NCBI RefSeq assembly: GCF_004323185.1
Contig: NZ_NAPS01000001.1
Location: 1 to 35,011, forward strand
Length of the DNA: 35,011 nucleotides
Reading direction: 5' to 3'
From: Westiellopsis prolifica IICB1
GTDB taxonomy: Bacteria > Cyanobacteriota > Cyanobacteriia > Cyanobacteriales > Nostocaceae
A program made the translations under genes and the position numbers. The notes below the pieces were generated by a model. The model saw only the letters and a list, made by a program, of their open reading frames with translations. It did not search any database and was not told the origin of the DNA. Positions 3,432 to 21,116 of the stretch are shown here, one piece after another. Numbering within the stretch: position 1 is the first letter of the stretch; each line of letters opens with the position of its first letter.

Positions 3432-3691
3432 TTAACGAATCAAGTCAAAGGAAATATCGGTTACACCGGTGATGTTGGTGTTGCGATCCATTTCATCGAG
3501 AATGGTGTTGACAACCCAGTTGAGGAGGTTGATACCACCTTGATAACCGATGGTTGAATAGCGGTGTAAGTGGTGGCGATCGAAAATTGGATAACCAATC
3601 CGTACCATTGGGATCTTAGTGTCACGCCACAGGTACTTACCGTAGGAATTACCAACAAAGAAGTCTACAGGCTCAGTGAACAGCAAGCTAC
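3432..3691 (-). CDS. nifK: NifK, C-terminal fragment (separated 3' part of nifK)
   Basis: Encodes the last 85 residues of the MoFe protein beta subunit (from SLLFTEPVDFFVGNSYG to the terminal DISFDLIR). It has no start codon of its own: upstream of the serine codon the reading frame passes into unrelated DNA at a GTAG core. The matching 5' part (residues 1-427) is on the opposite strand at 11438-12720. Joining at GTAG gives ...LWHFR-SLLFTEP..., the normal NifK sequence, about 512 aa. This is therefore not decay but one side of a programmed-type gene split, with a serine recombinase gene starting 40 bp away. Confidence 0.95.
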
Positions 3692-3708
3692 CAATGCGTT
3701 CTCTATCA
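3688..3708. other. nifK recombination site (right junction: core GTAG plus element arm)
   Basis: The core reads CTAC on the plus strand (GTAG in the nifK sense) at 3688-3691. The element side carries AATGCGTTCTCTATCA at 3693-3708, which matches AATGTGTTTGCTATCA beside the other nifK junction (12724-12739) at 13 of 16 positions. Read from each core inward the two arms face each other, as expected for half-sites bound by a serine recombinase. Core length (4 bp) is short, similar in scale to the 5-bp core known for the fdxN element. Confidence 0.8.
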
Positions 3709-3730
3709 GGTAATATAGTCTAAGACTTTT

Positions 3731-5293
3731 ATGGTACGCTGTATGGACGTTTGGGCTTACGCAAGGGTTTCGACGGATGAGCAGAATGAGGACGAAGGTG
3801 CTTTAATAAAACAAATGCGTCGGTTGCGTAGTGCTGGAGCCACACAAATATATTACGATGTTGAAAGTCGTACAAGTGATAAGCGTAAAGGGCTTCTGAA
3901 GTTGATTGAGGATATCAACGCATCTACACCAGGCAAAGTGTCCAAGCTGCTATTTATTCGGATTGATCGTTTAACATCCTCATCAATGACTTTTTATCGT
4001 TTGATGGATGCGTTGAAAAACAAAGGTATACAACCATGTGCATTAGATGAGCCATTTGATATGTCGAGTATTGGTGGCGAGTTGACAATTGACGTTCGAT
4101 TGGCAGCAAGTAAATACGAAGTGAAGATGCTGGGGATGCGAGTCAAAAAAGAGCGAGATACGCGCAAAGCTAATAAAAAACCCCATTGGAATGCACCTTT
4201 GGGGTATGTGGTTGAGAATGACAAGTACAAACGAGATGATCGTCCATGTGTTTGTTTGATAGCAGGGAAGAGGGAGTTAACGCGATCGCAATTAATGCGA
4301 TTTGTCTTTGATACTTTTTTCGCAGTCGGTACGGTGTCCCAAACAGCGAGAGTACTGCATGATACTTTGGGTATTCAAGCAAATGCTGTGCCAAAAAGTG
4401 CTGATGCTAGGATTAACCTTCTGGAGCCAGAAGAGGAAATTGTCCTAGAAAATATCAACAAATCTCGTAGTGGTGCATTAAATCTGCGTTATCCCCACAC
4501 TGGCTTAAAGTGGTCAGTTTCTGGCTTGCGATCTATTCTTGTAAATCCTGTCTATGCAGGGGGAACACTGTACAACACTTTAGTTCGTTCCAAAGGACAC
4601 AGGAAACCCTTCGATGAATGGGAAGTTGCGTGGGGAACTCACGAGGATGAAGCGATTATCACTCGCGAGGAACACGAACGCATCAAATCAATGATTAGGG
4701 ACAACCGTAAAAACCGATGGGCAAGTGAGCAAAAATATACCAATCCCTTTGCAAACTTAGTCAAGTGCGTCTATTGTGGTGCTGCTTACAGTCGCCAATG
4801 TAAGAAATTGGTTAAGAAAAAGAATTTTGTCAGACATCATTACCAATGTAGTTTTTATCGTACTGGGGCTTGTAGTAACGGAAAAATGATTTCTTCTGAC
4901 GAACTAGAAGCACAAGTGATTAATCATTTAGTTCGTGAGGCTGAACGTTTAGCTGGGTTAGTAGAGAAAGAGGTGGAAAAAACAACAGAATCACCAGAAG
5001 TAAAAACACTTCGAGCATCTTTAAATACTCTCGAAGCGCTACCATCAAATCCAGCAATTGAGAAAGCTAAAGAAGATATTAGGATGCAGATTGCTGATGC
5101 GATCGCGACGACAAACAATACGTCCAAACAATATTTAATTGCCAAAGAACGGATTGTTGTCGCATTTTCAAACCATAGGTATTGGCAAGGGCTAGAACCA
5201 CAGGATCAACAAGCTCTACTTCAAGGGTGCGTGAAGAAAATCATGGTAGATGGCAACACAGTCACTGCGGTCGAATTGCTACATTTGCATTAA
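3731..5293 (+). CDS. Large serine recombinase, XisF-like (probable nifK-site recombinase)
   Basis: 520 aa (508 if the second ATG at 3743 is used; the conserved domain begins right there with MDVWAYARVSTDEQ). N-terminal resolvase domain with nucleophile Ser in YARVST and the FIRIDRLTSS segment (residues 1-150), a recombinase domain (about 165-320), a zinc-ribbon with CVYCGAAYS and later cysteines (about 345-400), then a charged C-terminal helical/coiled-coil region. This is the large serine integrase family that includes XisF of the fdxN element. Its start lies only about 40 bp from the nifK core, so its promoter must overlap the recombination site or lie in nifK DNA. Paired with the nifK site by adjacency (inference). 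Confidence 0.92.
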   Translation: MVRCMDVWAYARVSTDEQNEDEGALIKQMRRLRSAGATQIYYDVESRTSDKRKGLLKLIEDINASTPGKVSKLLFIRIDRLTSSSMTFYRLMDALKNKGIQPCALDEPFDMSSIGGELTIDVRLAASKYEVKMLGMRVKKERDTRKANKKPHWNAPLGYVVENDKYKRDDRPCVCLIAGKRELTRSQLMRFVFDTFFAVGTVSQTARVLHDTLGIQANAVPKSADARINLLEPEEEIVLENINKSRSGALNLRYPHTGLKWSVSGLRSILVNPVYAGGTLYNTLVRSKGHRKPFDEWEVAWGTHEDEAIITREEHERIKSMIRDNRKNRWASEQKYTNPFANLVKCVYCGAAYSRQCKKLVKKKNFVRHHYQCSFYRTGACSNGKMISSDELEAQVINHLVREAERLAGLVEKEVEKTTESPEVKTLRASLNTLEALPSNPAIEKAKEDIRMQIADAIATTNNTSKQYLIAKERIVVAFSNHRYWQGLEPQDQQALLQGCVKKIMVDGNTVTAVELLHLH

Positions 5294-5430
5294 GCAGCCC
5301 TAGATTTGCGGCGTTTAGGTTTGTTCTCCTTTGGCTGTTGCACCTGCAAGGCTTGTTGTAGCTGTGCCTCACGTTTCTCAAACTCCATTATAGTTCGAGC
5401 AACTAATTCTGCTAAGGTTTCACGTTTCAT
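5290..5430 (-). CDS. Small basic helical protein, candidate recombination accessory factor
   Basis: 46 aa: starts MKRETLAELVARTIMEFEKRE, then a Gln-rich stretch and a Lys/Arg-rich tail ending in KRRKSRAA. Not recognised. Its ATG overlaps the stop of the 63-aa ORF upstream (ATGA), indicating translational coupling, and its stop overlaps the 3' end of the convergent recombinase. Size, charge and position next to a serine recombinase would suit a recombination directionality factor, but that is inference only. Confidence 0.55.
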   Translation of the reverse strand: MKRETLAELVARTIMEFEKREAQLQQALQVQQPKENKPKRRKSRAA

Positions 5431-5618
5431 AATTGATTGTTATCGCTTCTTTGACAATAGCTGCAAGGTAAAAAACTTCTGTTAGCTGCGAGCTTTTTGC
5501 GTTGGCTATCTGGTAAGTCTTTCACAAATCTGATTGTGATTTTCTGCCTTAGCTTCATCTGTCGCAGGAATTCAATAACAGATTTTGAGAAGAAATTTTG
5601 ATGCGGTTTCCTCCCCAT
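5427..5618 (-). CDS. Small hypothetical protein coupled to the 46-aa ORF
   Basis: 63 aa, ATG start, strongly basic (begins MGRKPHQNFFSKS), with a CSYC motif near the C-terminus that could bind metal as half a zinc finger. Its TGA stop overlaps the ATG of the next small ORF, so the pair forms a two-gene unit convergent with the recombinase. Not recognised as a known family. Possibly a DNA-binding accessory of the recombinase (inference). Confidence 0.5.
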   Translation of the reverse strand: MGRKPHQNFFSKSVIEFLRQMKLRQKITIRFVKDLPDSQRKKLAANRSFLPCSYCQRSDNNQL

Positions 5619-6000
5619 ATCTAGAAAACAGAGGGTTTTGTCACTAGTAGTCTATCGCATTGATTTTGCCTGACTACAAAGGAAAAATGCCTGTATCTCA
5701 TCCCTGGTTAATGTTGGGCTGCAAGTCAATTTCTTCTTCGTCAGGAGTGAGCAAGTCAATTAGTAAAGTTGCGAGTCCCTTGTCACAAAACTTCACTTTC
5801 TCATCCAATTTCCAGCTTCATGCTAATTCTTATTATTAAGCCTACTTTCTCTTACTTCTATCTTAGTTACCATGTACTACTCAAGCGACTTTTTGTTGAT
5901 GTATGACAGTTAGGGTGCGGAATGTGGGTCTCTTTGTACTCCAAGTTGAAGTGCGGAATGTAGGATTGATAGAAGTCGGGTGCAGACAGCAATTGTCAAT

Positions 6001-6035
6001 CCAAAATCCAAAATCCAAAATCCAAAATCTAAAAT
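6001..6035. repeat. Heptameric repeat (CCAAAAT)5
   Basis: Four perfect CCAAAAT units plus a CTAAAAT variant; a typical cyanobacterial short tandem repeat. Confidence 0.8.
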
Positions 6036-6083
6036 GGTATTAACAGGGGTAGGGCTACGTACCAAGTTTGATATAAAAAATTT

Positions 6084-6111
6084 CTACACTGATGCTCTGC
6101 ATCGAGTGTAG
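6084..6111 (-). terminator. Hairpin downstream of ndhH-like gene
   Basis: CTACACTGATG and CATCGAGTGTAG form an imperfect stem with a 5-nt loop, about 70 bp past the stop of the minus-strand ndhH-like gene; the minus strand then runs into an A/T tract. Possible transcription terminator. Confidence 0.35.
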
Positions 6112-6180
6112 CCTTCTCAAATAATCTGGTTTATTTGAAAACGAGCAATAGCGACGTTTTCATAGCCGTGGGAGCGTCAA

Positions 6181-7374
6181 TTATCGGTCTACTGATCCCA
6201 TGATGATGTCAATACTACCTAATATTACGACTATATCGGCAACCTTAACACCACGTAGAAGTTTAGGTAAAATCTGCAAGTTGTTAAAATCCGCTGCACG
6301 GATTTTCCATCGCCAGGGGAAAACGTTATCATCACCAATTAGATAAATTCCCAGTTCACCTTTACCACTTTCTATACGGCTGTAAATTTCTCCTTTAGGA
6401 ATCTTGAAAGTGGGTGCAACTTTCTTACTGATATATTGGTAATCGAAGGCATCCCACTCGGATTTTTTACCTGCTAACATGCGTTTAGCTTCTAGATTCT
6501 CATAAGGACCACCAGGAAGTTGTTTAAGGGCTTGGCGAATAATCTTGACTGATTCACGCATTTCCCTAATCCGAACCATATAACGGGCAAAACAATCACC
6601 ACTACTATCCCATTGCACTTCCCAATCGAAGTCGTCATAGCATTCGTAGTGATCGACTTTGCGTAAATCCCATTTTACACCGGAAGCACGCAACATAGGA
6701 CCAGAAAGTCCCCAGTTGAGAGCTTCTTCCCGCGTAATGGTACCAACACCCTCAACGCGACGACGGAAAATGGGATTATCGGTAATCAAGCGCTCGTACT
6801 CATCTATCTTGGGTGTCATATAATTGCAGAAATCTTCGCACTTGTCCACCCATCCGTAAGGCAAATCAACTGCTACACCGCCAATGCGAAAGTAGTTATT
6901 GTTGACCATCCGATAACCTGTAGCAGCTTCCCACAGATCGTAAATAAGTTCCCGTTCTCGGAAAATATAGAAGAAAGGAGTTCCAGCGCCAGTGTCAAGT
7001 AGGAACGGACCTAACCACAACAAATGGTTAGCAATCCGGTTCAATTCCAACATAATGACACGGATATAACTAGCGCGTTTGGGGACGGGAATACCAGCTA
7101 ATTTCTCTGGAGCGTTAACTGTAACTGCTTCGTTAAACATTCCCGCTGCATAATCCCATCGACTGACATATGGGACATACTGAATATTAGTGCGGTTTTC
7201 GGCGATTTTTTCCATTCCTCGATGCAAATAGCCTATAACTGGCTCGCAATCGATGACATCTTCGCCATCTAGGGTGACAATTATCCTAAAACACCCATGC
7301 GTAGAGGGATGGTGAGGACCCATGTTGATGATCATGGGGTCTGTTCTTGTTTCAATCCTTCCTGTATAGGCCAT
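6181..7374 (-). CDS. ndhH: NAD(P)H-quinone oxidoreductase subunit H (NdhH-like), cargo of the element
   Basis: 397 aa, ATG start, full length for NdhH (about 394 aa). NdhH is the 49-kDa-type subunit of the photosynthetic NDH-1 complex, located in the peripheral arm near the quinone pocket. Conserved segments: [69 protein letters not shown], and the C-terminal [14 protein letters not shown]. No frameshift or stop, so apparently functional, yet it sits alone without other ndh genes between two recombinase genes. Probably a second, diverged copy; if the element is excised the gene leaves with the circle. Confidence 0.93.
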
Positions 7375-7733
7375 AGCTAAACAAAATATCTTTTTGCAAG
7401 TATCTGAATTGTAACTTATATTAAAGGGCTATGAATGCTTAACAAACAGTATTTATAGAATTGTAAATCATAGGGCGTTGTTGCATGAATAGGGAAAATG
7501 AGGAGTTATACTCATTGCCTGTTCTTTTTCTAGTGCCAACCCATCAGTTAGAGGTTAATCCCTGTTTTGTCACTTTCAGAAGAGAAGTGGTGGGTTGCTT
7601 ACACACTGATTAAGAACGAATTGGTTTTCGTGTGAAGCCTGACAAACAACCTTTTCTTTGAGTTAAATTCAAACGCGATCACGCAAATACATAATCAAAT
7701 TCAAATGTGTTCAAATCTCTAGGTTTGGGATAA
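7375..7733. mobile_element. Intergenic region with an IS-end remnant
   Basis: No gene. At 7472 the sequence GGGCGTTGTTGCATGAAT resembles the terminal inverted repeat style of common cyanobacterial insertion sequences, but I find neither a partner end nor a transposase, so this is at most a solo IS end or decayed copy. Confidence 0.35.
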
Positions 7734-8159
7734 TTAAACAATTGGTGTATACATTGTAGCCAGCCTTCTTGTACTAGTTAATTCCTCCTCCAAATCGCTG
7801 ACTAAAGAAGCAACTACCGCCTTTATAGAACCTGTATTTTCAAAAACTTGCCGTTGGCGGATATAACTCGCTCCTTGATCCAATTTTTTTTCCAGTTGGA
7901 GTAAATATGAGCTTTCTCTGAGAGTATCAGCAGTTTCTCCTAGTGCATTCAAGATATCCTTAACTATATTTCTCATAGGTCTGCTGTTGCCTTGTTCATC
8001 TTCGATGTAGTTGGCATCTAAACCCCAGCGAGATGCTCGAAAGTAGTTTTCTCTCTCAATCAGCCAAGGAAGGGGTTTTAATAGAAATCCTGTTTGTTTT
8101 CCTTGATAGTGGTAATGTAGATCCACAACTAAAGAATGGACAAAAGCAGCGAGCATCAT
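7734..8159 (-). pseudogene. Carboxylate-amine ligase (GCS2/YbdK-like) C-terminal remnant
   Basis: 141 codons corresponding to the C-terminal third of a glutamate-cysteine-ligase-2/YbdK-type protein (ATP-grasp-like carboxylate-amine ligase): the segments ERENYFRASRWGLDA, MRNIVKDILNALGETAD and DQGASYIRQRQVF match the family pattern. Family members are about 370-400 aa, and the N-terminal two thirds are absent; the frame is cut about 15 bp before the end of an ISAs1-like remnant (8175). Read as a gene truncated by transposition or deletion. Family assignment from memory of motifs only. Confidence 0.6.
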
Positions 8160-8174
8160 AGACTCTTTTACCGT

Positions 8175-8735
8175 CAGGGCAAACGCACCTTAAAGTGGCA
8201 TAGACATGATTGACAATTGAATGTATATATGGATAGAAGAGATCAGTACTTGTGACAGGTTACTCGCGAACCGCTAGAGCGTCGAGCCAGTAATATATAT
8301 TGACAAAAATATAATTATGTAATTGCGGTCAAAACGCCCATTTGTGGCTAAATTTTTAGGTCTGGTTAAGAGCGATCGCATTCAAACTGAGCACCCAAAA
8401 GTTCGATCTACGATGCAATGGGTTGCCAGAAAGATATTGTTAACAAGATTGTTGAAAAAGGTGGAGACTACGTTATTTCTTTAAAAAAGAAAAGAATCAA
8501 AACTCTTTGTATCAAAAGGTAGAAGAGCTATTTAAACAAGCAATTACAAACAAATATGAGGGATTTTCTTCTAGCACTATTCGTGTTTCAGAACCGGCTC
8601 ATGGTCGTAATGAAACAAGGTATTGCGTAGTGTTGAGCAATGTTAAAGAACTCATAGCTCCGGAGGGAAAATGGAACAGTTTATGCTCTGTAGGCCTTTC
8701 CAAAAAATAAAATGTCCAGCCCTGCGTTTGCCCTG
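8175..8735 (+). mobile_element. ISAs1-like insertion sequence, internally deleted
   Basis: Bounded by 13-bp perfect terminal inverted repeats CAGGGCAAACGCA (8175-8187) and TGCGTTTGCCCTG (8723-8735). Only 561 bp remain, less than half the normal size, so it has lost most of the transposase. No target duplication is evident. It abuts the truncated ligase gene. Confidence 0.7.
8406..8710 (+). pseudogene. ISAs1-family transposase fragment
   Basis: The sequence IYDAMGCQKDIVNKIVEKGG followed by DYVISLKK is the characteristic ISAs1 DDE-domain core; after an A-rich stretch near 8485 the frame shifts and continues as NQNSLYQKVEELFKQA. Start and C-terminus are missing. Non-functional. Confidence 0.75.
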
Positions 8736-8821
8736 AGCCTCAAACAGAGGAACCAGACAGGCTCAAAGGATGCAATCTCGCCTCTGCGGTAGGCGATCGC
8801 GGACGATATCCACTCCTTACC

Positions 8822-8950
8822 ATGCCAGTAGGAGAAGTTAGCCAAGTGGTATCAGACGAACTGTATCGAGTCAAATGGTCAGATGGGCGTGACAACCTCT
8901 ACGAACTTGGGGAGCTATCCGCGCTGATCGCTGATACAGAAAAATTTTGA
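8822..8950 (+). CDS. Small hypothetical ORF
   Basis: 42 aa (MPVGEVSQVVSDELYRVKW ... LSALIADTEKF). The frame remains open further upstream to about 8706, so this may be the C-terminal remnant of a longer protein. The pattern VSDELYRVKWSDGRD is coding-like (a compact beta-strand domain), but I do not recognise it. Confidence 0.35.
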   Translation: MPVGEVSQVVSDELYRVKWSDGRDNLYELGELSALIADTEKF

Positions 8951-8990
8951 TTTTTGATTAATGTAAAAATATCGCTTCAGGAGAGAAAAA

Positions 8991-9182
8991 ATGTCTAGGC
9001 AAGAATCTAGGGAAGAATTTTTAAAGCGTCTGAGAAAGCTAGCGATTGAGTTTTATGACCTTCACCATCCAAATTCAATCGACGCAACATTACCCGAATT
9101 GTCCACAAACACCACCTCAACAAACGACCTGAATACCTGCCGTAAATCGCCATCATCAAGCGAATCCCAGAAAATTGCCTGA
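8991..9182 (+). CDS. Small hypothetical ORF overlapping the nifD-site recombinase 3' end
   Basis: 63 codons starting MSRQESREEFLKRLRKLAIE, with a good ribosome-binding sequence (AGGAG 8-9 bp before ATG). Only the first 25 codons precede the convergent recombinase stop; the rest is antisense to the recombinase and low-complexity. Likely a gene start truncated when the recombinase DNA arrived. Confidence 0.35.
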   Translation: MSRQESREEFLKRLRKLAIEFYDLHHPNSIDATLPELSTNTTSTNDLNTCRKSPSSSESQKIA

Positions 9183-10411
9183 GAGTATGACCAGGCTAGT
9201 TTGAGTCTGTCAGCGTCGATTCTAGAGGCAGATTTTAGGCGTATTTCCTCAGCTTCAATCTGTCCTTGGATGTCTCGCACAGCCGCAATAATGGCAGGAT
9301 TATTTGAGTTGAGCGCTTCCAAGCCTGCCAACTGTTGTTTAAGGTCGATGAGTGTTTTTGACTCTTCAGGGCTGCGATCGCTCACATTGGATTGCTCAGT
9401 AATTTCTTTTGACTTTTGGGTGATTCGTTCTATCACCTGTTTAGTTAAGACGGTCAACCTCGCGCTGGCTTTGTTTGGGCAAAAATGAACGTTCTGGACA
9501 TGCTTATTGCATTTTATGTAGTGCGTTTCCCCAGATTTGAATTTGGAGATAACGCGGTACATTCCGCCGCCGCAGAGGCTACACCGCAATAAACCTTTCA
9601 ACGGGTAATCCTTCTCTCTGCTTCCTGACAGTCGTGGTTTGGTTTTGGCGTCGCGCCTTATTTTGCTGATTTCGGCTTCTGTTGCGATGCGCTCGTGAGT
9701 ATTGCGGGTAATTTGTGGTGGTCGTGGGTTGCGAGGGTTACGGCGATATTCCATCTCCGTGAAGTATCGAGTGTGTCCTAAAATTGCCGGATTTTTCACC
9801 CAATGCCGCAGCCCGGACAGCGAAAATTCAATGCCATATTCCTCAAAAAGTAGCTTCGACACCGCCCCATAGCTGTACCCGTCCAGCAGCAAATCGATTA
9901 TTTTCCTAGCTATGGGGAAGTTGGTTTCATGCGGTTCCAGCTTGCGATCGCTGTTGAGCTTGTACCCAAAACAAGCCTTTTGCAACTTGCCTTGTGAGCG
10001 AAAATAATTCATTCCGTGTCGGGTGCGTTCCGATAATAACCTGCTTTCAAAGTCCGCTAATGCTGCCATCTGGCTTGCAGAAAAACGCCCAAACGACGAA
10101 CTAACATCAATGGGTGCATCCAGAATCCGCAGTATGATTCCACAGTCATTAAACAGTTGAATAGTCCTGATTACGTCGATATCACTGCGCCCTAATCTGT
10201 CAATACGAGTGATAATGACTTCTCTGACCTTCCCCTCTTTAACCAACTTCAAAAGTTTATTGAATTCCTTTCTTTTGGAACTCCGCCCAGACTCCACATC
10301 CACTAACACCACTTCAGCGCCAGCGTCCTCCAGTCGCTTTACTTGCTGTTTCAAAGCATCATATTCTAAAGATTGTTCCACTGTGCTAACGCGGGCATAA
10401 CCGAAAATCAT
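9062..10411 (-). CDS. Large serine recombinase (probable nifD-site recombinase)
   Basis: 449 aa, ATG start. Resolvase domain with catalytic Ser in MIFGYARVSTVEQS and the IITRIDRLGRSDIDV segment (residues 1-145), recombinase domain (about 150-260, SGLRHWVKNPAILGHTRYF), zinc ribbon (CSLCGGGMYR plus CNKHVQNVHFC, about 280-330) and a C-terminal helical region. Clearly different from the 520-aa recombinase in this element. Starts about 160 bp from the nifD core and is transcribed away from it. Assigned to the nifD site by adjacency (inference). It is not of the XisA tyrosine-recombinase type that serves the classical nifD element. Confidence 0.92.
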   Translation of the reverse strand: MIFGYARVSTVEQSLEYDALKQQVKRLEDAGAEVVLVDVESGRSSKRKEFNKLLKLVKEGKVREVIITRIDRLGRSDIDVIRTIQLFNDCGIILRILDAPIDVSSSFGRFSASQMAALADFESRLLSERTRHGMNYFRSQGKLQKACFGYKLNSDRKLEPHETNFPIARKIIDLLLDGYSYGAVSKLLFEEYGIEFSLSGLRHWVKNPAILGHTRYFTEMEYRRNPRNPRPPQITRNTHERIATEAEISKIRRDAKTKPRLSGSREKDYPLKGLLRCSLCGGGMYRVISKFKSGETHYIKCNKHVQNVHFCPNKASARLTVLTKQVIERITQKSKEITEQSNVSDRSPEESKTLIDLKQQLAGLEALNSNNPAIIAAVRDIQGQIEAEEIRLKSASRIDADRLKLAWSYSQAIFWDSLDDGDLRQVFRSFVEVVFVDNSGNVASIEFGW

Positions 10412-10425
10412 CTCACTTGACCCCT

Positions 10426-10506
10426 AAAAATAATGGGCAGGCTTAAAACCAATTGATTAATCTGTTGGACTTTGCGACTCTCCAAAGAAGCCTGCCCATT
10501 ATTTTT
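10426..10506. repeat. 81-bp palindromic element upstream of the nifD-site recombinase
   Basis: Perfect 19-bp inverted repeats AAAAATAATGGGCAGGCTT (10426-10444) and its complement (10488-10506) separated by 43 bp, beginning 15 bp before the recombinase ATG. It could be a MITE, a cruciform-forming control element, or a 5'-UTR hairpin that would mask translation. Confidence 0.8.
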
Positions 10507-10547
10507 CACGTGTTGGTCTCTCATAGCGAACGCATTCAACCACAACC

Positions 10548-10579
10548 GTTAATCATACCTCGCCGTCGCGGTCTGGTGA
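10548..10579. other. nifD recombination site (3'-half junction: core GGTCTGGTGA plus element arm)
   Basis: The core GGTCTGGTGA is at 10570-10579 in the nifD sense. Element side: GTTAATCATACC at 10548-10559, which matches GTTAGTCATAGC at 18906-18917 beside the other nifD junction at 10 of 12 positions, i.e. similar arms facing each core. Joining at the core restores [11 protein letters not shown]. Confidence 0.85.
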
Positions 10580-11282: not shown

Positions 11283-11437
11283 AAAAAAGTCTGAACTGAG
11301 GACTAGGGATTAGGGAGTGGGGATTAGGAATTAGGTTAGAGTTCTTCCCCAATTCCCATTCCTCAATTCCCAATTACCAATCCCTGGTCTGCGTGTAAAC
11401 ACCATTACCCACCCCAGCAAGCAAAAGAGATACAAAA
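11283..11437. repeat. nifD-nifK intergenic repeat
   Basis: Variants of GGGATTAGG on the left arm and the complementary CCCAATTCCC/CCTCAATTCCC on the right arm form an imperfect inverted repeat of about 100 bp between nifD and nifK. AAGAGATACAAAA just before ATG serves as the nifK translation-start region. Confidence 0.5.
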
Positions 11438-12720
11438 ATGCCACAGAATCCTGACAAAATCGTAGACCACGTAGACCTATTTAAACAGCCAGAGTATACC
11501 GAACTCTTCAAGAATAAGCACGAACAATTTGAAGGCGCACATTCTGACGCAGAAGTAGAACGGGTTTCTGAGTGGACAAAAGGTTGGGACTACCGTGAAA
11601 AGAACTTTGCTCGCGAAGCACTAACAGTTAACCCAGCCAAAGGTTGTCAACCAGTAGGCGCAATGTTTGCAGCCCTCGGCTTTGAAGGAACTCTTCCCTT
11701 TGTCCAAGGTTCTCAAGGTTGCGTTGCATACTTCCGTACTCACCTCAGCCGTCACTACAAAGAACCTTGTTCTGCTGTTTCTTCTTCTATGACAGAAGAC
11801 GCAGCCGTGTTCGGTGGTTTAAACAACATGATTGAAGGTATGAGTGTTGCTTATACACTCTATAAGCCCAAGATGATTGCTGTTTGCACCACCTGTATGG
11901 CTGAGGTTATCGGTGATGACTTGGGTGCATTTATCACCAACGCTAAGAATGCTGGTTCTATTCCCCAAGATTTTCCTGTACCCTTTGCTCACACCCCTAG
12001 CTTTGTTGGTTCCCACATCACTGGTTACGACAACATGATGAAGGGAATTTTATCTAACCTGAGTGAAGGTAAGAAGAAAGACAAAACTAACGGCAAAATC
12101 AACTTCATTCCTGGCTTCGATACCTATGTAGGTAATAACCGCGAACTCAAGCGGATGCTGGGTTTGATGGACATAGACTACACAATTCTTTCTGATACCA
12201 GCGATTACTTTGATTCACCTAATAATGGTGAATATGAAATGTACCCAGGTGGTACTAAGTTAGAAGATGCTGCTGAAGCTTGCAACGCCGAAGCTACTAT
12301 TGCTCTGCAAGCTTACACTACTCCCAAGACTCGTGAGTATATTAAAACCAAGTGGAATCAGGAAACTAAGGTTTCGCGTCCCTTCGGTGTCAAAGGTACA
12401 GATGAATTTCTGATGACATTGTCAGAATTGACTGGTAAGCCCATCCCCCAAGAATTAGAAATCGAACGCGGTCGCTTAGTTGACGCCATGACCGATTCCT
12501 ACGCTTGGATTCATGGCAAGAAGTTTGCAATCTATGGCGAACCAGACCTAATTATTAGCGTTGTTAGTTTCTTGTTGGAATTGGGTGCTGAACCAGTACA
12601 TATTCTTTGCCACAATGGTGACGAAGTATTCAAGAAAGAACTCCAAGCTATTCTTGATGAGAGTCCCTTCGGTAAGCAAGCGACTATCTGGCTTGGTAAA
12701 GATTTGTGGCACTTCCGTAG
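11438..12720 (+). CDS. nifK: NifK, N-terminal part (5' part of nifK, inverted)
   Basis: Encodes residues 1-427 of the MoFe protein beta subunit; the frame runs past the core into element DNA for eight foreign codons and stops at 12745 (435 aa). P-cluster ligand regions are all present: [36 protein letters not shown] and [18 protein letters not shown] start with the typical [15 protein letters not shown]. Truncated at ...KDLWHFR; the remaining 85 codons are at 3432-3691 on the other strand. Any protein made from this arrangement would lack the C-terminal domain. Confidence 0.96.
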
Positions 12721-12739
12721 ACTAATGTGTTTGCTATCA
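12717..12739. other. nifK recombination site (left junction: core GTAG plus element arm)
   Basis: GTAG core at 12717-12720 followed by the arm AATGTGTTTGCTATCA (12724-12739), which pairs with the arm at 3693-3708. The two cores are in opposite nif-sense orientation in this window, so recombination between them would invert 3688-12720. Confidence 0.8.
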
Positions 12740-13255
12740 AACTAAATTCCCTGCACCGAAACTAGCTAATGGTCTAGCTTGCACTGTTGCTGCCAAACTT
12801 TGAGTCCAGGTAGGTACAAACCGCAACATTAACCACCCTATGAGTATTAATGTTAACAATCTCTGGAACTGATGAATGACAACCCCAGCAGGATTGGGTT
12901 TACCTGCCAATTCTGGAGCCAATTCTTCTTGAACCACACCACCTTTTACCTGTGCGTTTTGACTAATATTTGCTGTGGTCAGTGATTTGTATGTAAGTTT
13001 ACCACCAATCTGAGCAGAATCATCCAGGGTAAGACCAATTGGAACTTGTGGGATAGCCACAGGTGTTTGAGACGCGAAAGGTTCTCGCAAAACATTGGGA
13101 TCGGCGATCGCGGTTACTGTCATGTTCCCGCCAACAGTACCTCGCAAATCCAGAGAATTCATCCCACCAACAACATTCCGTTCAACTTTACCAGCCAATA
13201 AGGCCTGAGTGCCACCAAAATATAAATTTCCCCCAACTGTCAAGACCTTCGCCAA
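12737..13255 (-). pseudogene. Fragment of a bactofilin-like/integral membrane protein
   Basis: 172 codons without an ATG start (the first codon is TTG inside an open frame). Repeated VGGN/IGG motifs (VGGNLYFGG, VGGNMTVTA, IGGKLTYKS) suggest a beta-helical polymer-forming domain, followed by one hydrophobic segment (LLTLILIGWLMLRFV). Larger cyanobacterial proteins of this type carry more N-terminal repeats and several C-terminal membrane helices; here both ends are missing, cut by the nifK-side element end and by the ISH3-like element. Assignment is tentative. Confidence 0.5.
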
Positions 13256-13340
13256 ATTTATGACCCACTAGAACAAGTAGTGGTAGGGTGAATACGCCCT
13301 AAATTGGTAACTGTGTGGAAAATATTCGCGAGTAAAATAG

Positions 13341-14821
13341 CAGTAAACCAAAAAGTTTTTAAGAGAAGAGCGATCGCCAAATATTTTGTAATCTACGATA
13401 CTTTTTGATACCCAATCCTCTAACCAGCAGACATAGTATAGATTATGATTACTTATGATTAGCTAGCCGAGAATGCGTCAATATTAACCTGATGAAATAT
13501 AAATGCTTTCAACTACTTGATATTTCCGCTCAATAGCTTGAGATAAAAAGGCTAACATCTGTTTGAGTACGAAAAGTGTCCGATAAATTAATCGGCTACC
13601 TTTCCTCTTTCGACTGATTCTGAGCCAAAGGAGATTCACCCAGATATTAACTAAAAGAAAAGATATGCCAACGAATAATAATCTTAATGCCGGATTTTTG
13701 TTATTCGTTCTAATTCGACAAATATTTTTCAGACGATAACTAGTTTCAATCCCAAACCTTTTTCGATAATCTTGATAGATATAATCTAAATTTGTTTTGA
13801 TCTTGTAAGCCACGTAAACAAAGTATTGAACTCCATGTTTTTTATGCTTTCCCTTTCTATATTTGCAGACAATCCATAAGTCAAAGGTGACTGAATCATC
13901 TTTGTTTCTTGTGATGGTATAGGTAGTTTTATAACTTTTTTTACCCTTGAGAAATTGTTTGATTCCTCCTGATTTCCCCGTTTTGATAGCAGGCATCATA
14001 AATGGAATATAAGACAGCTTGCAACCATCTGATTACAGGAGTATTATAAAATCCCCTATCTAGATAGAGTTTTTTTACATTTATTTTAAGAGATTCAAGT
14101 TCTGCTAATAAATAGGTAATAATGGCTACACTGGTATCAAATCGTCGAATACCTCTTATTGCAAGGGTTACACGCTTATTATTACTAATAACATATAAAG
14201 TTGCATAGGCATAAAATGAATTAGTACCAGATTTAGCTTCACTTCGATATATGTAGGATAATTCTTCTGATGTTGGCTTACCATAATAACAAATTAAATT
14301 TAAATCAATCGCTATTTTTAAGCACCCCTTTTTTAATCCTAAAGGAATTCGACTTTTTAATGCTTGATTTATTTGCGCCTCTAATTCTTCAAAATTGTTA
14401 ATTTTATTAAGATGATATCTAATATCATTAGCTGTAGGAATATTTTTTAACAATTTAGCGGTGTTTTCAATACTATCTCCACTGCTGGCTGCTTTGATCA
14501 GAATCTCGAATAAAGTTTGTTGGTCACATCTTCCTTGAGTTTCAATGGAAAAGTTTTCTACGAAACACTTAATAACTTCATCAAGGGTTTCTGAATCGGT
14601 TAAAGCGAGTTCTTCTGTAGACTCGCTCCGCGTGGCAATTCGATGAGATGAAACAGTCAATTTTAAGAGCCAATATGCTACACACTACTTTCATCATTTC
14701 ATTTTTTAAAACTTTTCAGAGCAATATAATTATTACTTATGCAATGAGTAGTATATAGCACTTTAGCTTACGTAAATGTGATTAGCGATCGCTCTTCTCT
14801 TAAAAACTTTTTGGTTTACTG
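13341..14821 (-). mobile_element. ISH3-like insertion sequence with 37-bp inverted repeats
   Basis: Perfect 37-bp inverted repeats at 13341-13377 and 14785-14821 (outer end CAGTAAACCAAAAAG, inner end containing GCGATCGC) flank a frameshifted transposase gene. It is inserted at the 3' end of the IS701/IS4-like transposase remnant, whose last codons run into its right repeat. Length 1481 bp. Confidence 0.85.
13484..14660 (-). pseudogene. ISH3-family-like transposase, frameshifted
   Basis: Two overlapping frames: 13941-14660 (N-terminal and catalytic part with IAIDLNLICYYGKP and LYLDRGFYNTPVIRWLQA) and 13484-13999 (FMMPAIKTGKSGG to the C-terminus with the helical KRFGIETSYRLKNICRIRT segment, the usual third acidic residue region). 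The reading frame shifts near 14000-14020, between WLQA and IPFMMPA. I see no obvious slippery run, so decay is more likely than programmed frameshifting. Confidence 0.7.
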
Positions 14822-15668
14822 ATAGGGTCTGGTTTTTGGGGAAGTAATTTTATTGTTTGCTCAACATACCGATAACCCCGGAATAGTGCCTTGAGGTCTG
14901 TAATGCTAAAATCGGGGTTAAATTGGCGAAAGTGGGAAAGCAAGATATGGGAAACATTAACCATAAAAAAAGCAAGATTAGCAGCATTTGTCACGGCATT
15001 TTTGCTAATATTCATAAAATCTTCTAGTCCCCAAAATTGTTTCGCGTCACGAAAATTAAACACGAGAGTGAAATCTCAAGCTGTAATAATCGACAATCTT
15101 GTCATAACTTAAATTCAAATCTGTTGAAAATAGCACAGCATGGCTTCGATTAGAAGTTACAAGATTTGTCCGCACAATAATTACAACATTTAAGGGTTGA
15201 GAAAATTCTTTATGCAGAAGCTGAACCTGATAAAATTTTGTCTGAATGTTATCAATCGTCTCTGTTTTCTTCAGGTAATTTTCTGGTATATCTAAGTAAT
15301 TTATTCTATCTCCATACTTACGACGACTCTTACCATTTGGGTCAGGATTTTGATAAGGGACGTACAAAGCTGAATCACAACGTATTTTACAAATTAGCTG
15401 TAAACCCAATCTCCGAGCCATCACCACAGCACTATTGTTGCCAAAATGACCATCTAAAACCAAATAAGTCAATGGTAAAAACTTATTTATTTTTTTGAGC
15501 AAATCTAAAATTTGCTTTTGAATACGTAGAAGTTCCACGTTATATACCCAGCATTGTAATTCTTCCACTCATCCCTAAAATTGCGTATACGATCGTACTC
15601 CAACGCCTTAGAGTTGTTCTTGTCGTATGTCGCTGCAAGCATTCTAATAGTGCTAATATATCTGGCAT
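14822..15668 (-). pseudogene. IS701/IS4-like transposase remnant
   Basis: Starts at ATG 15668 (MPDILALLECLQRHTTRTTL, then AILGMSGRITMLGI), then a stop and a jump to a middle part (LTYLVLDGHFGNNSAVVMAR, with the DGHFG-type DDE residue region) and, after another frame break near 15063, a C-terminal part (FNFRDAKQFWGLEDFMN, with the family's Y-R-F...E/D region). At least one internal deletion and one frameshift. Interrupted at its 3' end by the ISH3-like element. Confidence 0.65.
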
Positions 15669-15800
15669 GGGCTTTCTGTCAGTGTTGAGTTGTAGTTGTG
15701 GTAAACAATAACTCTACTACGGAAAGCCCTCTTTATTTTGGCGAAGGTATTGCTAAATTGAGACGATTGTATTCTAAAGTAATTTTTTCGACTAAAAATA

Positions 15801-16664
15801 GGGCGTTGCATCATTGCGGGATGATATATAATCGAGGATAAATTTTTCTATTAGCGATCGCCAAAAGGGAAAATGGAAATGAATTGTCCAAAATGCGGAG
15901 GTAATGATATTATAAAAAATGTAAATAGAAGAGGTAAGCAGAATTACCAATGTAAGAGTTGTGGTCGCCAATTTATTGAATCATATTCGGTTAGAGGTTA
16001 TCCCAAAAAAATCAAAGAATCCTGCTTAACCATGTATCTAAATGGCAACGGGTTTAGGGCGATTGAAAGAATTACGAGTGTGAATCATAATACAGTTATC
16101 CGTTGGGTAAAGGAAGTTGGTCAGCGTTTACCAGATAATACTAATGATAGTATACCAGTGGTTGCTCAATTAGATGAGTTACAAACATTTGTCGGTAAAA
16201 AAAAATAAAGTATGGATATGGACGGCTTTAGATAAGGACTATTCGTCCATACTAGAATATGTCATAGGTTCGAGAAGTGCAGAAACATTTGAGAGATTAT
16301 GGAATAAAATAAGCGATTGGAATTGCTATTTTTGGATAACAGATGGATATAAAGTTTATCCGAAATTTATTCCGGACGGAGACCAGATTGTGAGTAAGAT
16401 AGGTATGACAAGAGTAGAAGGGGAAAATAGTCGGTTAAGACATTATTTAGCTAGACTGCGCCGCAAAACTTTTTGCTACTCGAAATCGTTAGAGATGTTA
16501 TCTCTATCACTCAAGCTATTGATTTACTATCTGAAATATCAGGATATTTCCTTGATAGTTTAAATTTTAAATATGATTATTCGCTCTTTTCGCGATCGCC
16601 TGAATTTAATTGCTTTCAAAATGTAGGAAAAAACCGCATATCATCCCGCAATGATGCAACGCCC
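15801..16664 (+). mobile_element. IS1-family insertion sequence, apparently intact
   Basis: 864 bp, bounded by perfect 27-bp inverted repeats (15801-15827, beginning GGGCGTTGCATCATTGCGGG, and 16638-16664). Contains overlapping insA and insB frames. No 8-9 bp target duplication is visible, so its flanks may have rearranged since insertion. The surrounding minus-strand DNA is IS1182-like transposase on the right and a weak match to its continuation on the left (RIVSIS-like at about 15750). Confidence 0.88.
15873..16563 (+). CDS. IS1-family transposase (InsA-InsB', probable programmed frameshift)
   Basis: InsA frame 15873-16208: N-terminal zinc-finger (CPKCGGNDIIKNVNRRGKQN, then CKSCGRQF) and HTH segment GFRAIERITSVNHNTVIRWV. 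InsB frame continues to 16563 with the DDE/N catalytic region (VWIWTALDKDYSSI, YFWITDGYKVYPKF, TRVEGENSRLRHYLARL). The two frames meet at a run of nine A residues (16197-16205), the type of slippery site at which IS1 makes its fused transposase by -1 frameshifting. Both frames are undamaged, so the element may still be active. Confidence 0.85.
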
Positions 16665-17628
16665 GATAGACTTCTGCGACTACTAGCAACATCTTATATT
16701 GGATTTTACTTAAACTTTCAAGAGTTGCCCCTGACAGGATTAGCTGCTCAATATAAGATAAGTTTCTTTTAATATATTGGAGTTGTTTTTTAATCGCTTT
16801 TCTTCTTTCTTTTTGTGACACCCGACGTTTCTTCGCTACTTCTAGATAGTCTCTTCTCGCTATTTCCCGATAGGTTCTTGGTTTTTTCTCTAATTGCCCC
16901 TTTATCTGTTCATAAAGAGAGTCGATAATTTTTTCTGTCTGCTTTCTGGCTTGATTTAATAGCCCTAGGTCTGTCGGATAGGGATCTCCAAATAATAAAA
17001 TGCCCAGCCGTCGCTTTCGCCTGAAGGGCGAAAGCGCCTAAATCTTTGGGCGGATGCCAAAATATATTTAATACGGCTGGGCATTTTATTACGAGTAAGT
17101 GCCATAGCTGATATCACCAGGTGCACAAGTCGCATCCAATATTAATTTCCCACGATTTTTTGGTTCACTTATTTCTTTTTCTTTTTCTTCTATTTTTTTT
17201 TGAGACGGTTGAGAAGATGTTGTTTCTGTCATCTTCTTCACCATTTCTTGATTCACTTTGTTTACCAGACTTACACTTATTCTTTCACGAAAATGTACTA
17301 ACATTGATGCATCAAATGGAGTTTCATTACTATAGGACGACATCCCTATAAAATACTGTAGATAAGGGTTCTCCTTGATTTGCTCTACTGTCTCCCTATC
17401 GCTTATTCCAAGTTTCTCTTTAATTATTAAGGCACCATTAGCCATCCGAAACGATTTAGCTGGTGCACCCATTTCTTCATCAAAAAATGAAGCATATTCC
17501 TCTTCAAACTCCGACCAAGGTATTAACGAAGCCATAATTACCCAACGATTCTCTTCTGATAACTTTCCCTCAAAGGGAAGTTCAAAGTTTTCTGGTGGAA
17601 TTGCAGGTTCTTCTTGTTTTCTGTACAT
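16665..17628 (-). pseudogene. IS1182/IS5-like transposase, interrupted by a MITE and by IS1
   Basis: N-terminal part 17089-17628 (MYRKQEEPAIPPENFELPFE, with the DUF772-like ENPYLQYFIGMSSYSNETPFDAS and the start of the catalytic domain LILDATCAPGDI). The frame is broken by a 97-bp palindromic insertion at 16994-17090, resumes as DPYPTDLGLLNQARKQTEK, RRVSQKERRKAIKKQLQYIK, and is cut off by the IS1 right end. Two insertions into one dead transposase give a relative age order. Confidence 0.75.
16994..17090. mobile_element. 97-bp MITE-like palindromic insertion
   Basis: 18-bp perfect terminal inverted repeats AATAAAATGCCCAGCCGT (16994-17011) and complement (17073-17090), with an internal hairpin (CGCTTTCGCC...GGGCGAAAGCG). 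It carries no ORF and interrupts the IS1182-like transposase between the codons for CAPGDI and YPTDLG. Confidence 0.8.
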
Positions 17629-17907
17629 GGTTGCTAATTATACCATTGTACTGACCACGAACGGTTATGCAAGGGTTTTAAGCTATTCTACGCTTTCTTC
17701 TTGCACTTAACAAGATTTTTCCGGTTTACAATCCTCACAGTGTTACCTTTTTCTACTTTCTCAGCAGACCCTACTTAGGACAAGCGATTTATCTACTGTC
17801 ATATTTTTACAGTTTTTATTTGTTATTTCTGGGTTTACCCGGTAGGTGCAAGATATCAGCTGATATTTTGCAACTGATTTGTTCTATAGTATGTCACCCG
17901 CACCCTT

Positions 17908-17931
17908 AGTCAGCGTAACGTTACGTTGACT
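17908..17931. promoter_or_regulatory. 24-bp imperfect palindrome, copy 1
   Basis: Half-sites AGTCAGCGTAAC and GTTACGTTGACT around a central AACGTT; one mismatched pair. A second palindrome of the same design is at 18848-18871 (AGTCACTATAAC / GTTATGGTGACT). Shared core: AGTCA-5nt..TAACGTTA..TGACT. Two such sites flank the phage-like remnant, suggesting an operator or accessory recombination-protein site. Confidence 0.6.
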
Positions 17932-17934
17932 ATG

Positions 17935-17960
17935 AAAAAGCCGCGTATCAGAGCGCGGCT
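17935..17960 (-). terminator. Rho-independent-like terminator (minus strand)
   Basis: AGCCGCG (17939-17945) pairs with CGCGGCT (17954-17960), 8-nt loop, followed on the minus strand by a run of T (plus-strand AAAAA at 17935-17939). Placed just after the phage-like gene remnant when reading the minus strand. Confidence 0.55.
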
Positions 17961-17990
17961 GACCTATCAGTAGTAAAGGTACTTCCATTA

Positions 17991-18216
17991 TTAGGCGACG
18001 GCGGCGGTGCGATCGCCGTAGAGCTTGAGTATTGCCTGCCTTGGCTTTTCCCAACGCTGGCGGATTTCTCTATACTCAGGGAAATACAGCCCAAGCTGTT
18101 CGTAGTAGTAGGCGATCGCAAGCTCTATGCAAGCAGTTTGTAACAAAAAATAAAGCCCATAATCAGGTTTTCTGTCTATGGGGTCTTGGATAGTAGCTCC
18201 ATTTTGGAGCTACTAT
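17991..18216 (-). pseudogene. C-terminal remnant of the phage-like gene
   Basis: Open frame ending at 17991: ...NGATIQDPIDRKPDYGLYF, LLQTACIELAIAYYYEQLGL, YFPEYREIRQRWEKPRQAIL... AAVA. Coding-like and without a start. It lies downstream, on the same strand, of the terminase-small-subunit-like frame 18424-18792; the two are separated by a MITE and by stop codons, so probably one broken gene. Confidence 0.5.
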
Positions 18217-18217
18217 C
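18189..18217. repeat. Perfect 13-bp stem hairpin
   Basis: GATAGTAGCTCCA and TGGAGCTACTATC separated by TTT, inside the broken phage-like gene. Function unknown; no T-run, so a terminator is unlikely. Confidence 0.7.
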
Positions 18218-18227
18218 GCGTAACTCT

Positions 18228-18407
18228 TAGGACTAGCCCTTTCAAGGTGACTCATAAAATCTCTTTTTTCCTCTCTGCGCTCTCTGCGTTCTCTGCGGTT
18301 TAAAAGTTATTTATTTAACCGCATAGGCACAGAGAACACAGAGATAAGAGCTTACAGAGGAGTTGATTGTTGAGAATTTTGCTCCACCTTTAAAGGGCTA
18401 GTCCTAA
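18228..18407. mobile_element. 180-bp MITE with 22-bp inverted repeats and ACTCT target duplication
   Basis: Ends TAGGACTAGCCCTTTCAAGGTG (18228-18249) and its complement with one mismatch (18386-18407). Five bases ACTCT occur on both outer sides, consistent with a target-site duplication. Internal sequence contains CTCTGCG-CTCTCTGCG repeats and their complement but no ORF. Confidence 0.8.
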
Positions 18408-18423
18408 CTCTTTTGTAGCCATT

Positions 18424-18792
18424 CTAGATGGTAGGCTCAAATTGAGCCGAGCATCCCCAGTTTTCTACCTTCATTGTCGCAACCATCGCCGCACCAATGC
18501 GTTCACTTTCCTCTCGGTAGGCTTCTGTGCGAGAGGCATACTCCATTCTTTTTTCAGTTTCCCTAAAAGAACGGTTAAGGCGGTCAAGGTAAAGGTCATA
18601 CTCGCGGCATCGCTCTACCCAATTGTGTTGGGTAGCCCAGTATTCTAGTGGACGCTTGTATCCTGGTGGCTTACCAAGTGCGATCGCTACCTTAGCAAGC
18701 GACCTATCCGCACCCATATCTCGGTAAACCTGAAAAGCTTTCCACCTTTTAGGTGTCTCATTTTCCTGCCTTTCCCATATCGGGCTATCCAT
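18424..18792 (-). pseudogene. Phage-like (terminase small subunit-like) protein fragment
   Basis: 122 codons: MDSPIWERQENETPKRWKAF, YRDMGADRSLAKVAIALGKP, WATQHNWVERCREYDLYLDR. The pattern 'E.P..W.AF..YRDMG..RS...VA' followed by 'W...H.W..R..EYD' resembles HTH-containing phage terminase small-subunit-like proteins found in bacterial genomes. The frame ends just before the MITE and is probably the N-terminal part of a longer gene continuing at 18216-17991. Start at ATG 18792. Suggests phage ancestry of this part of the element (inference). Confidence 0.5.
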
Positions 18793-18847
18793 TTTGTACC
18801 TGCCGATTCACTTCCGATTCTTTACCGATACTACTTTTTCTACTTTG

Positions 18848-18871
18848 AGTCACTATAACGTTATGGTGACT
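18848..18871. promoter_or_regulatory. 24-bp imperfect palindrome, copy 2
   Basis: AGTCACTATAAC / GTTATGGTGACT with one mismatched pair; same architecture as the palindrome at 17908-17931. It is about 50 bp from the nifD core at 18924 and upstream of the phage-like gene on the minus strand, so it could be that gene's operator or part of the attachment region. Confidence 0.6.
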
Positions 18872-18882
18872 GGGGAACAGTA

Positions 18883-18905
18883 AGCTGCGAGCGTCTCGGC
18901 TTTTT
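18883..18905 (+). terminator. Possible terminator facing nifD 5' part
   Basis: AGC-TG-CGAG / CTCG-GCT bulged stem followed by TTTTT on the plus strand, 20 bp from the nifD core. Could stop antisense transcription from segment Y entering nifD. Confidence 0.35.
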
Positions 18906-18933
18906 GTTAGTCATAGCGCGTTTTCACCAGACC
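18906..18933. other. nifD recombination site (5'-half junction: core plus element arm)
   Basis: Core TCACCAGACC on the plus strand (GGTCTGGTGA in nifD sense) at 18924-18933; element-side arm GTTAGTCATAGC at 18906-18917. Partner of 10548-10579. The two cores are in inverted orientation, so recombination would invert 10570-18933 and restore nifD rather than delete DNA. Confidence 0.85.
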
Positions 18934-19711
18934 ACTGAGCAACAACACGCAAGCCCATTTCTTCTAGTAACATACGGCTTGCCCAAGCATCACCACCGAT
19001 GTTGTAGTCACCAATCAGGGCTACATCGTAGGGACCAGGTTCAATGGTGAGTGTATTTTCCTTTTTCGCTTTGTCAAAGCGAGGGAACATGTGGTCACGG
19101 ATAGCATCGTTAGCGATGTGGTGTCCTAAAGACTGAGATACACCCCGGAAACCTTCACAACGTACAGGTACAACGGGCTTGTTAATTTCTTTAGCAGCTT
19201 TTTTTGCTACAGCTTCGATGTCATCTCCAATCAGACCAATAGGACATTCAGACTGAACACTGATACCACGGTTGAGAGGGAAGAGTTCTTCAATTTCTTG
19301 AATCATCTTCGTGAGCTTTTTGTCACCACCAAAAACGATGTCACGTTCTTGGAAATCGGAGGTAAAATGCATGGTGCCAAAGCTATCAACACCAGTTTTA
19401 CCAACATAGTAGTTACGACGACCAGACCAAGACCAGTAACCGCAACCAACTGGACCGTGGCTGATGTGAACCATGTCCTTAATCGGACCCCAAACCACAC
19501 CCTTGGAACCTGCATAGGCACAACCACGAGCGGTCATTACACCAGGAACTGATTTGATGTTAGACTTAACACCGCAATCTGATTTGCCTTCTTCGTGGAC
19601 GTTGAGGTGTTTTTCCCGCTTTTTGCGAGATTTTTCAGGGTAAGCTTGGAGAACGTCTTTAATTAGTTCTTTATGTTCTTCTATGAGGTTCTTGTTTTCT
19701 GGAGGTGTCAT
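18911..19711 (-). CDS. nifD: NifD, N-terminal part (5' part of nifD)
   Basis: Encodes residues 1-262 of the MoFe protein alpha subunit, then four foreign codons (ENAL) and a stop from the element. ATG start with GAGGCAGAC upstream. P-cluster ligand regions are visible: [36 protein letters not shown] and [16 protein letters not shown]. The FeMo-cofactor cysteine and histidine are in the separated 3' part (10570-11282, opposite strand). The split falls in ...[14 protein letters not shown]. Product of this arrangement would be non-functional. Confidence 0.96.

Positions 19712-19885: not shown

Positions 19886-21116
<1,231 letters not shown>

Follow-up and report, generated by a model that had tools for sequence, protein, structure and literature searches.

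We found that, in the cyanobacterium Westiellopsis prolifica IICB1, the nitrogenase genes nifD and nifK are each split in two, and that the block between the halves, made up of the 3' piece of nifD (nifD3') and the 5' piece of nifK (nifK5'), is inverted, with all half-sites intact. The DNA analysed, referred to here as the window, comprises positions 1-35,011 of NZ_NAPS01000001.1 (GCF_004323185.1) and thus opens a 3.48-Mb contig in a 7.31-Mb genome of 29 contigs (code G000). The initial annotation had described both splits and the inverted block, and we recovered the four gene pieces at the same coordinates and on the same strands. With good confidence, we read the arrangement as two ordinary interruption elements scrambled by an inversion, the genes of which would be rebuilt by inversion plus excision in heterocysts.

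The genes from nifB (25883) through nifH (19886-20773) lie uninterrupted on the minus strand. They are followed by the 5' piece of nifD (18924-19711, minus), which holds codons 1-262 plus the core and matched NifD residues 1-266 by tblastn; by a 6.2-kb segment X (12721-18923); by nifK5' (11438-12720, plus; codons 1-427 plus the core) and nifD3' (10570-11282, plus), both inverted relative to the operon; and by a 6.9-kb segment Y (3692-10569). Beyond Y, the minus strand carries the downstream remainder of nifK (nifK3', 3432-3691), orf108 and the uninterrupted nifE and nifN (25-2808). The 1355 site of nifD, at which XisA-type elements are inserted, is uninterrupted in the window.

The empty sites were taken from the uninterrupted nifDK of G002, a genome of the same genus (genomes are cited by our own codes). 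Compared with these, the overlap is exactly 10 bp between the two nifD pieces and exactly 4 bp between the two nifK pieces. The nifD core, GGTCTGGTGA, is present exactly at 18924-18933 (minus, attL copy) and 10570-10579 (plus, attR copy), and the nifK core, GTAG, is present exactly at 12717-12720 (plus, attL copy) and 3688-3691 (minus, attR copy). The shared nifK core proposed in the initial annotation does exist, but its length had to be corrected to only 4 bp. Joining the pieces at the cores gave an open NifD of 496 amino acids (aa), identical to the intact G002 protein at 485 of 496 positions, and an open NifK of 512 aa (507/512), in agreement with the earlier claim that exact frames return there.

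Both core pairs stand inverted in the window. When the nifD pair was recombined first in silico, the DNA from 10570 to 18933 inverted, NifD of 496 aa was restored and the nifK pair became direct; recombination of the nifK pair then restored NifK of 512 aa and released a 13,095-bp circle. The reverse order, nifK first, produced a chromosome and a 13,095-bp circle that were letter-identical to those of the first order. One inversion plus one excision in either order, releasing a circle of about 13.1 kb, had been anticipated from the letters and was reproduced in silico. As XisF-type elements have been defined with cores in direct orientation, the definition of an XisF-type heterocyst interruption element has to be widened to admit inverted core pairs.

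The sequences flanking the cores pair within each element. In the nifD element, the attL arm (18906-18920, minus) is the inverted-repeat partner of the attR arm (10548-10562, plus); in the nifK element, the attL arm (12724-12739, plus) is the partner of the attR arm (3693-3708, minus). The pairing was matched by 6 of 1000 shuffles for nifD-L/nifD-R and by 5 of 1000 for nifK-L/nifK-R. Across elements, nifD-L/nifK-R was at chance (406/1000 shuffles as good) and nifK-L/nifD-R was moderately alike (24/1000). Other genomes discussed below gave comparable within-element values (shuffles as good: G016 nifK 1/1000 and nifE 1/1000; G100 nifE 9/1000; G173 nifE 2/1000), and the cross pairs in G016 were equalled by 215/1000 and 520/1000 shuffles. 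Within an element, the two arms thus make up an inverted repeat with the core between them, as would be predicted of attP, and the left and right arms of the nifD-788 and nifK-1283 elements in relatives, direct elements among them, resemble those of the window. The identical short cores (10 bp and 4 bp) and paired arms of an XisF-type element are present at both genes, with one cross pair moderately alike.

Two recombinase genes are located in Y. The gene xis1 (9062-10411, minus) encodes the 449-aa XisF-type serine recombinase of the nifD-788 element, and xis2 (3731-5293, plus) encodes the 520-aa XisF-type serine recombinase of the nifK-1283 element. Against the NCBIfam model recomb_XisF (NF041201; equivalog cut-off 375), xis1 scored 451.7 bits and xis2 530.7 bits, and both contain the Pfam domains Resolvase, Recombinase and Zn_ribbon_recom. 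An XisA-type assignment of the recombinases was overturned by these NCBIfam matches, which place both among the XisF-type serine enzymes. We likewise rejected an XisA-type nifD element as a candidate for the window, in which a serine recombinase and site 788 are found instead of a tyrosine XisA near 1355. Each of the two genes adjoins a gene-element border, the position of a large serine recombinase at the end of an XisF-type element. Among 217 genomes of the family, xis1 was matched in 50 (E up to 1e-60) and xis2 in 68; in seven besides the window's own genome, the xis1 match extended over almost the full length with an identity of 54% or more. Orthologues of xis1 adjoin nifD3' in direct elements of relatives, and the xis2 copy beside nifK3' in the same-genus genome G001 is 96% identical, so that the nifD-788 and nifK-1283 sites recur in other species with orthologous recombinases. 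To large serine recombinases, it makes no difference how attL and attR are oriented towards each other, and no new enzyme would therefore be needed.

A block that is normal in the cell could have been flipped by the assembler. Seven opposed pairs of gene halves were judged probable mis-assemblies in the survey by Hilton et al. (2016; PMC4874684); in addition, the present assembly is a 29-contig draft, and X contains insertion sequence (IS) copies that recur elsewhere in the genome. If repeats were to cause such a flip, inverted copies would have to match at the two block ends; X and Y, however, share no exact inverted match longer than 13 nt, which is at chance level (11-15 nt in 20 shuffles), and the window contains no N. 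Repeat-driven mis-assembly is therefore unlikely. This comparison of X/Y inverted matches served as the repeat test; a separate list of inverted pairs holds the 25 longest of 47.

The operon order in related genomes gave further evidence on this point. In G016, G017 and G022, an inverted block, nifK3'-orf108-nifE5', is flanked by a nifK element on one side and a nifE element on the other, and nifD, nifK5', nifE3', nifN and the genes beyond share one direction. In G018, nifK3'-nifE5' is opposed to nifE3', and nifK5' lies on another contig. The inversion can be read in the record of Nostoc carneum NIES-2107 (L078, 3736-21020) and in part in that of Nostoc linckia FACHB-104 (L080); the piece from Calothrix brevissima NIES-22 (L075) is direct. 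The joined element halves, P and Q, align between genomes, P in three and Q in four. Because these halves are homologous between genomes, the nifK/nifE inversion looks like one inherited event older than the divergence of the genomes. In a tree of xisE, most deeper forks of which are unresolved, G016, G017, G018 and G022 form a clade (100/98), and its sister is the direct G015 (95/82). Separate genomes thus have the nifK/nifE inversion in common, with homologous junction DNA, and nifE halves are opposed even in G100, a genome of one contig. The check on operon order suggested in the initial annotation thereby showed the same kind of inversion kept across species, and we regard an assembly error in the window as highly unlikely.

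The opposed halves were then compared at the codon level. Among the four genomes of the clade, nifK3' showed 5-9 synonymous and 0 nonsynonymous differences in 6/6 pairs. The ratio of nonsynonymous to synonymous substitution rates (dN/dS) was 0.009-0.063 for nifE3' and 0.031-0.219 for nifE5'; 11 of the 12 nifE values were at most 0.07, and the exception, nifE5' of G016-G017 (0.219), is based on few changes. As judged by these codon differences, the opposed nifK/nifE halves are under purifying selection and appear to be kept functional across several species, and a working way to join them would therefore be needed. In silico, both orders of recombination gave one product in the three genomes tested (NifK 511 aa, NifE 466-474 aa), with circles of 12,278, 17,635 and 12,983 bp. 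The selection argument is limited by G016 and G017, which carry further nitrogenase-like sets; a second full-length nifE match is present in G015, G016 and G018, and G022 has three PF00148 matches outside the nif cluster (C1:867314, 4900018 and 6642065) and lacks a second nifDK pair. The enzymes also appear to be intact: xisE was open in all seven cases checked. A broken xis2 in G016, G017, G018 and G022, suggested by a TGA at codon 3, was rejected, as a second ATG at codon 5 precedes the catalytic region and the frame is open.

These data also bear on whether the window is a dead end, in which nifD and nifK are permanently broken and nitrogen fixation was recently lost. As just one genome shows precisely this arrangement, the time for decay may have been short. 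Against such a loss, all pieces are open, and their codon differences from G002 are mostly synonymous (synonymous versus nonsynonymous: nifD5' 43 versus 5, nifD3' 31 versus 6, nifK5' 50 versus 5, nifK3' 12 versus 0); both recombinases are open, four half-sites are present, and opposed nifK/nifE halves are under apparent purifying selection in several species. No spare nitrogenase was found either, as a Pfam PF00148 search of the genome gave eight places and no second nifDK or vnfDK set. Six of the places are the nifD, nifK, nifE and nifN pieces in the window, and the two outside it (C8 and C1) we take to be chlorophyll-synthesis relatives. In the same genome, PF03574 (the HetR family) was matched at one place and XisI at three, one of the XisI matches containing a stop. 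A dead end seems to us improbable.

Inversion without excision was encountered in G100 and G173. In both genomes nifE5' stays with nifK, and nifE3', nifN and later nif genes are turned round (G100, C1:3914430-3944036; G173, C3:242077-258392); the last inverted gene of the cluster we take to be fdxH. A single in silico recombination at the nifE pair inverted 29.0 kb in G100 or 15.8 kb in G173 and gave a NifE of 467 aa, restoring the gene order with no DNA lost. PF00148 was matched in this nif cluster only, apart from two places elsewhere in each genome. The nif genes of the two genomes align, but hardly any alignment was obtained for the DNA from xisE to the cluster end. The initial annotation had proposed a compulsory two-recombinase programme; its geometry of inversion plus excision held for the window, but a compulsory programme was an overstatement, since G100 and G173 would need one inversion and no excision.

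To place the window among its relatives, we compiled the states of the same genes in other genomes. Within the genus, nifD and nifK are uninterrupted in G002; nifD is whole and nifK split over two contigs in G001, in which the best xis1 match, at about 40%, is not a close orthologue; and nifK is whole and nifD split only near 1355 in G003. Forty genomes were searched with the uninterrupted nifDK. Both nifK-1283 halves were on one contig in 24, direct in 20 of these and opposed in four (G000, G016, G017 and G022); nifK was unsplit in 3/40 (G003, G032 and G035), and the halves were on different contigs or one was lacking in 13/40. G035 was left out of the orientation use, as it has an unsplit nifK, a further nifK3' beside xis2 on another contig and two nifE5' pieces. 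For nifD-788, five genomes had both halves on one contig, four direct (G016, G017, G186 and G187) and one, the window, opposed. The nifE survey covered 23 genomes, 12 with both halves on one contig: 5/12 were direct (G015, G184, G192, G193 and G198) and 7/12 opposed (G016, G017, G018, G022, G100, G173 and G188). In G188, a metagenome-assembled Richelia, the opposed halves are about 64 kb apart (C270:19673-86186), with nifK5' on another contig. In the remaining genomes nifE was unsplit (3/23: G031, G032 and G068) or had its halves apart or one missing (8/23). As the genomes were mostly picked for carrying the recombinases, these fractions are not family-wide rates. In G100 (C1:3910145-3913657) and G101 (C152:9978-13455), nifK is also interrupted near codon 155, a site different from 1283, by roughly 2 kb.

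Elements at both genes in direct orientation occur together for nifD and nifK in G186 and G187, and for nifK and nifE in G015, G184 and G198. We infer an origin of the window's arrangement from such a state: the nifD-788 and nifK-1283 elements would have stood side by side and direct, each with its own XisF-type serine recombinase, and a chromosomal inversion that started within one element and ended within the other would have flipped the nifD3'-nifK5' block. The element halves would thereby have been shuffled, the left ends being joined in X and the right ends in Y, with every half-site whole. Since an inversion inside the elements leaves the half-sites whole, the genes could still be rebuilt by site-specific recombination. 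The recombinases would act in the developing heterocyst, presumably the site of the recombination; whichever came first would make an inversion, because its att pair is inverted, and this would turn the other pair direct, so that the second recombinase could excise the 13.1-kb circle of X plus Y. The elements would serve as neutral landing places for the ends of inversions, either two elements or one element and other neutral DNA. On the simplest reading, ordinary elements let random inversions survive since the recombinases would still rebuild the genes.

The inversion could instead be a recombinase product, if a nifK element carrying xis1 and attP had recombined with the nifD attB in inverted orientation within the same molecule. 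Such an integration would need no breakpoint inside the elements, would explain junctions lying exactly at normal element sites and would fit the nifE cases with a single inversion. Both elements are direct in the same relatives, as listed above, and in the xisE tree the inverted clade has the direct G015 as its sister, which favours an inversion between elements already in place. Against integration also stands G001, which is without a close xis1 orthologue. We consider integration in cis doubtful for the window and, where a direct sister exists, the less likely origin; it predicts the same resolution reaction as the inversion between two elements.

A reversible switch, by which the block would invert back and forth in vegetative cells and some copies would always be direct, was also weighed. 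In bacteria, serine recombinases are well known to invert DNA at specific sites (PMC8987985). Against such a switch, X and Y lack the long shared homology that might drive flipping, and the inverted nifK/nifE state is common to four genomes. Large serine integrases, moreover, convert attL and attR to attP and attB in a reaction that is not simply reversible. A switch of this kind we find hardly credible.

Several points weigh against two scrambled elements resolved by inversion and excision. The window adjoins the contig end in a 29-contig draft assembly, and precisely this inversion, of nifD3'-nifK5', was found in no genome but this one (1 of 5 one-contig nifD-788 genomes). Neither XisH nor XisI was present among the element open reading frames (ORFs) scanned. 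The breakpoints of the inversion in X and Y were not found by comparison with other elements, the ends of which align and the middles hardly. A full-length gene for subunit H of NAD(P)H-quinone oxidoreductase, ndhH, lies in Y (6181-7374, minus). No other ndhH was found in the genome, and excision would put this one on the circle, an odd fate for a gene of the housekeeping type; its nearest counterparts within the genus share about 80% DNA identity with it. With these points included, the observation itself is right, and the mechanism is, on the comparative sequence evidence, the best-supported reading, strengthened by the inherited and apparently selected examples in other genomes.

The remaining contents of X and Y were as follows. 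X holds IS remnants at 13241-15752, with a nested ISH3-like copy inside, and an IS1-like remnant at 15798-16667; no target duplications were seen at these by eye, which settles nothing. A terminase-small-subunit-like ORF (18424-18792, minus; phrog_6299) hints at a phage ancestry of one element, and no relatives of the elements were found among viral contigs. A palindrome, GTCACTATAACGTTATGGTGAC (18849-18870), is located some 55 bp away from the attL core of nifD; its motif is exact near attL in G017 and, by eye, looser in G034 and G187. Palindromes around TAACGTTA were noted at 18849-18870 and 17907-17932, and they are possibly a site for a directionality factor. The ORF scan of Y showed a C-terminal fragment of glutamate-cysteine ligase (7734-8159, minus). 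Two stretches of Y, 5780-5929 and 8224-8435, recur at C12:248148-248642 of the same genome with 98-99% identity, about 130 bp apart and in rearranged order. Elsewhere in the window, an ORF between nifU and nifH (21117-21512, minus) resembles a truncated haemoglobin (GlbN) by eye and has no NCBIfam match, and a 21-bp unit, about ACTCRTGTTTTCAACGAACAG, forms a tandem array at 34862-35008.

Heterocyst elements are known to be removed by deletion. In their survey, Hilton et al. (2016) catalogue 101 elements and describe removal between direct repeats; nifD, nifK and nifE are among the interrupted genes, positions 227, 895 and 1355 are among four nifD variants, and the nifK recombinase is linked to XisF (PMC4874684). 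The window's elements are like the fdxN/XisF element of Nostoc PCC 7120 in having an XisF-family serine recombinase beside one element end. They differ from it and from the surveyed elements, which have direct repeats, in that both att pairs are inverted and the first reaction would be an inversion. The nifD-1355/XisA element likewise interrupts nifD, and an element lies at the matching site in the same-genus G003, but its site, its recombinase superfamily (tyrosine) and its direct orientation are different. The seven pairs that the survey labels 'odd assembly', regards as likely mis-assembly and leaves without further characterisation (PMC4874684) also have interrupted-gene halves in opposite directions; to these, the present analysis adds paired att arms, order-independence, cross-genome inheritance and selection. 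Our data argue against mis-assembly as a general explanation of the opposed pairs. The initial annotation had suggested that the rearrangement would be a new mode; opposed halves had already been seen and set aside, but reading them as inversions is new with respect to that survey. Titles and the beginnings of abstracts in the open-licence literature, which were covered in part, contained no other description of inversion as part of heterocyst rearrangement, which is not proof of absence.

Outside the cyanobacteria, spirotrich ciliates such as Oxytricha keep genes in germline pieces, some of them inverted, that are ordered in the somatic state. Their rearrangement is RNA-guided and eukaryotic, and unrelated to serine recombinases at fixed cores. 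The sigK/skin elements of sporulating bacteria undergo simple excision with no inversion, unlike the window's case. The likeness to Oxytricha is one of working only, in that pieces are ordered in a differentiating state (PMC2394655, PMC9797194), and the likeness to sigK/skin is an element within a gene that is removed developmentally (PMC5025042).

It appears fairly likely that heterocyst-forming cyanobacteria harbour scrambled nitrogenase operons, the pieces of which have mixed orientations in the germline and are set right in the terminal cell through programmed inversions that are obligatory, with or without excision. At the same strength, this would hold jointly for nifD/nifK in the window, nifK/nifE in the four-genome clade and nifE to the cluster end in G100 and G173, and random inversions in neutral elements would, reasonably probably, be rescued by the recombinases, scrambling accumulating as in ciliates. 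Whereas the known heterocyst rearrangement is a deletion between direct repeats, programmed inversions, some without DNA loss, would be added to it, and some cases once set aside as mis-assembly would be real. Annotation may label such nif genes broken or absent. If the reading is true, nitrogenase genes can be scrambled yet maintained by selection, a bacterial counterpart of scrambled genes in which the influence of interruption elements on genome architecture would be amenable to experiment.

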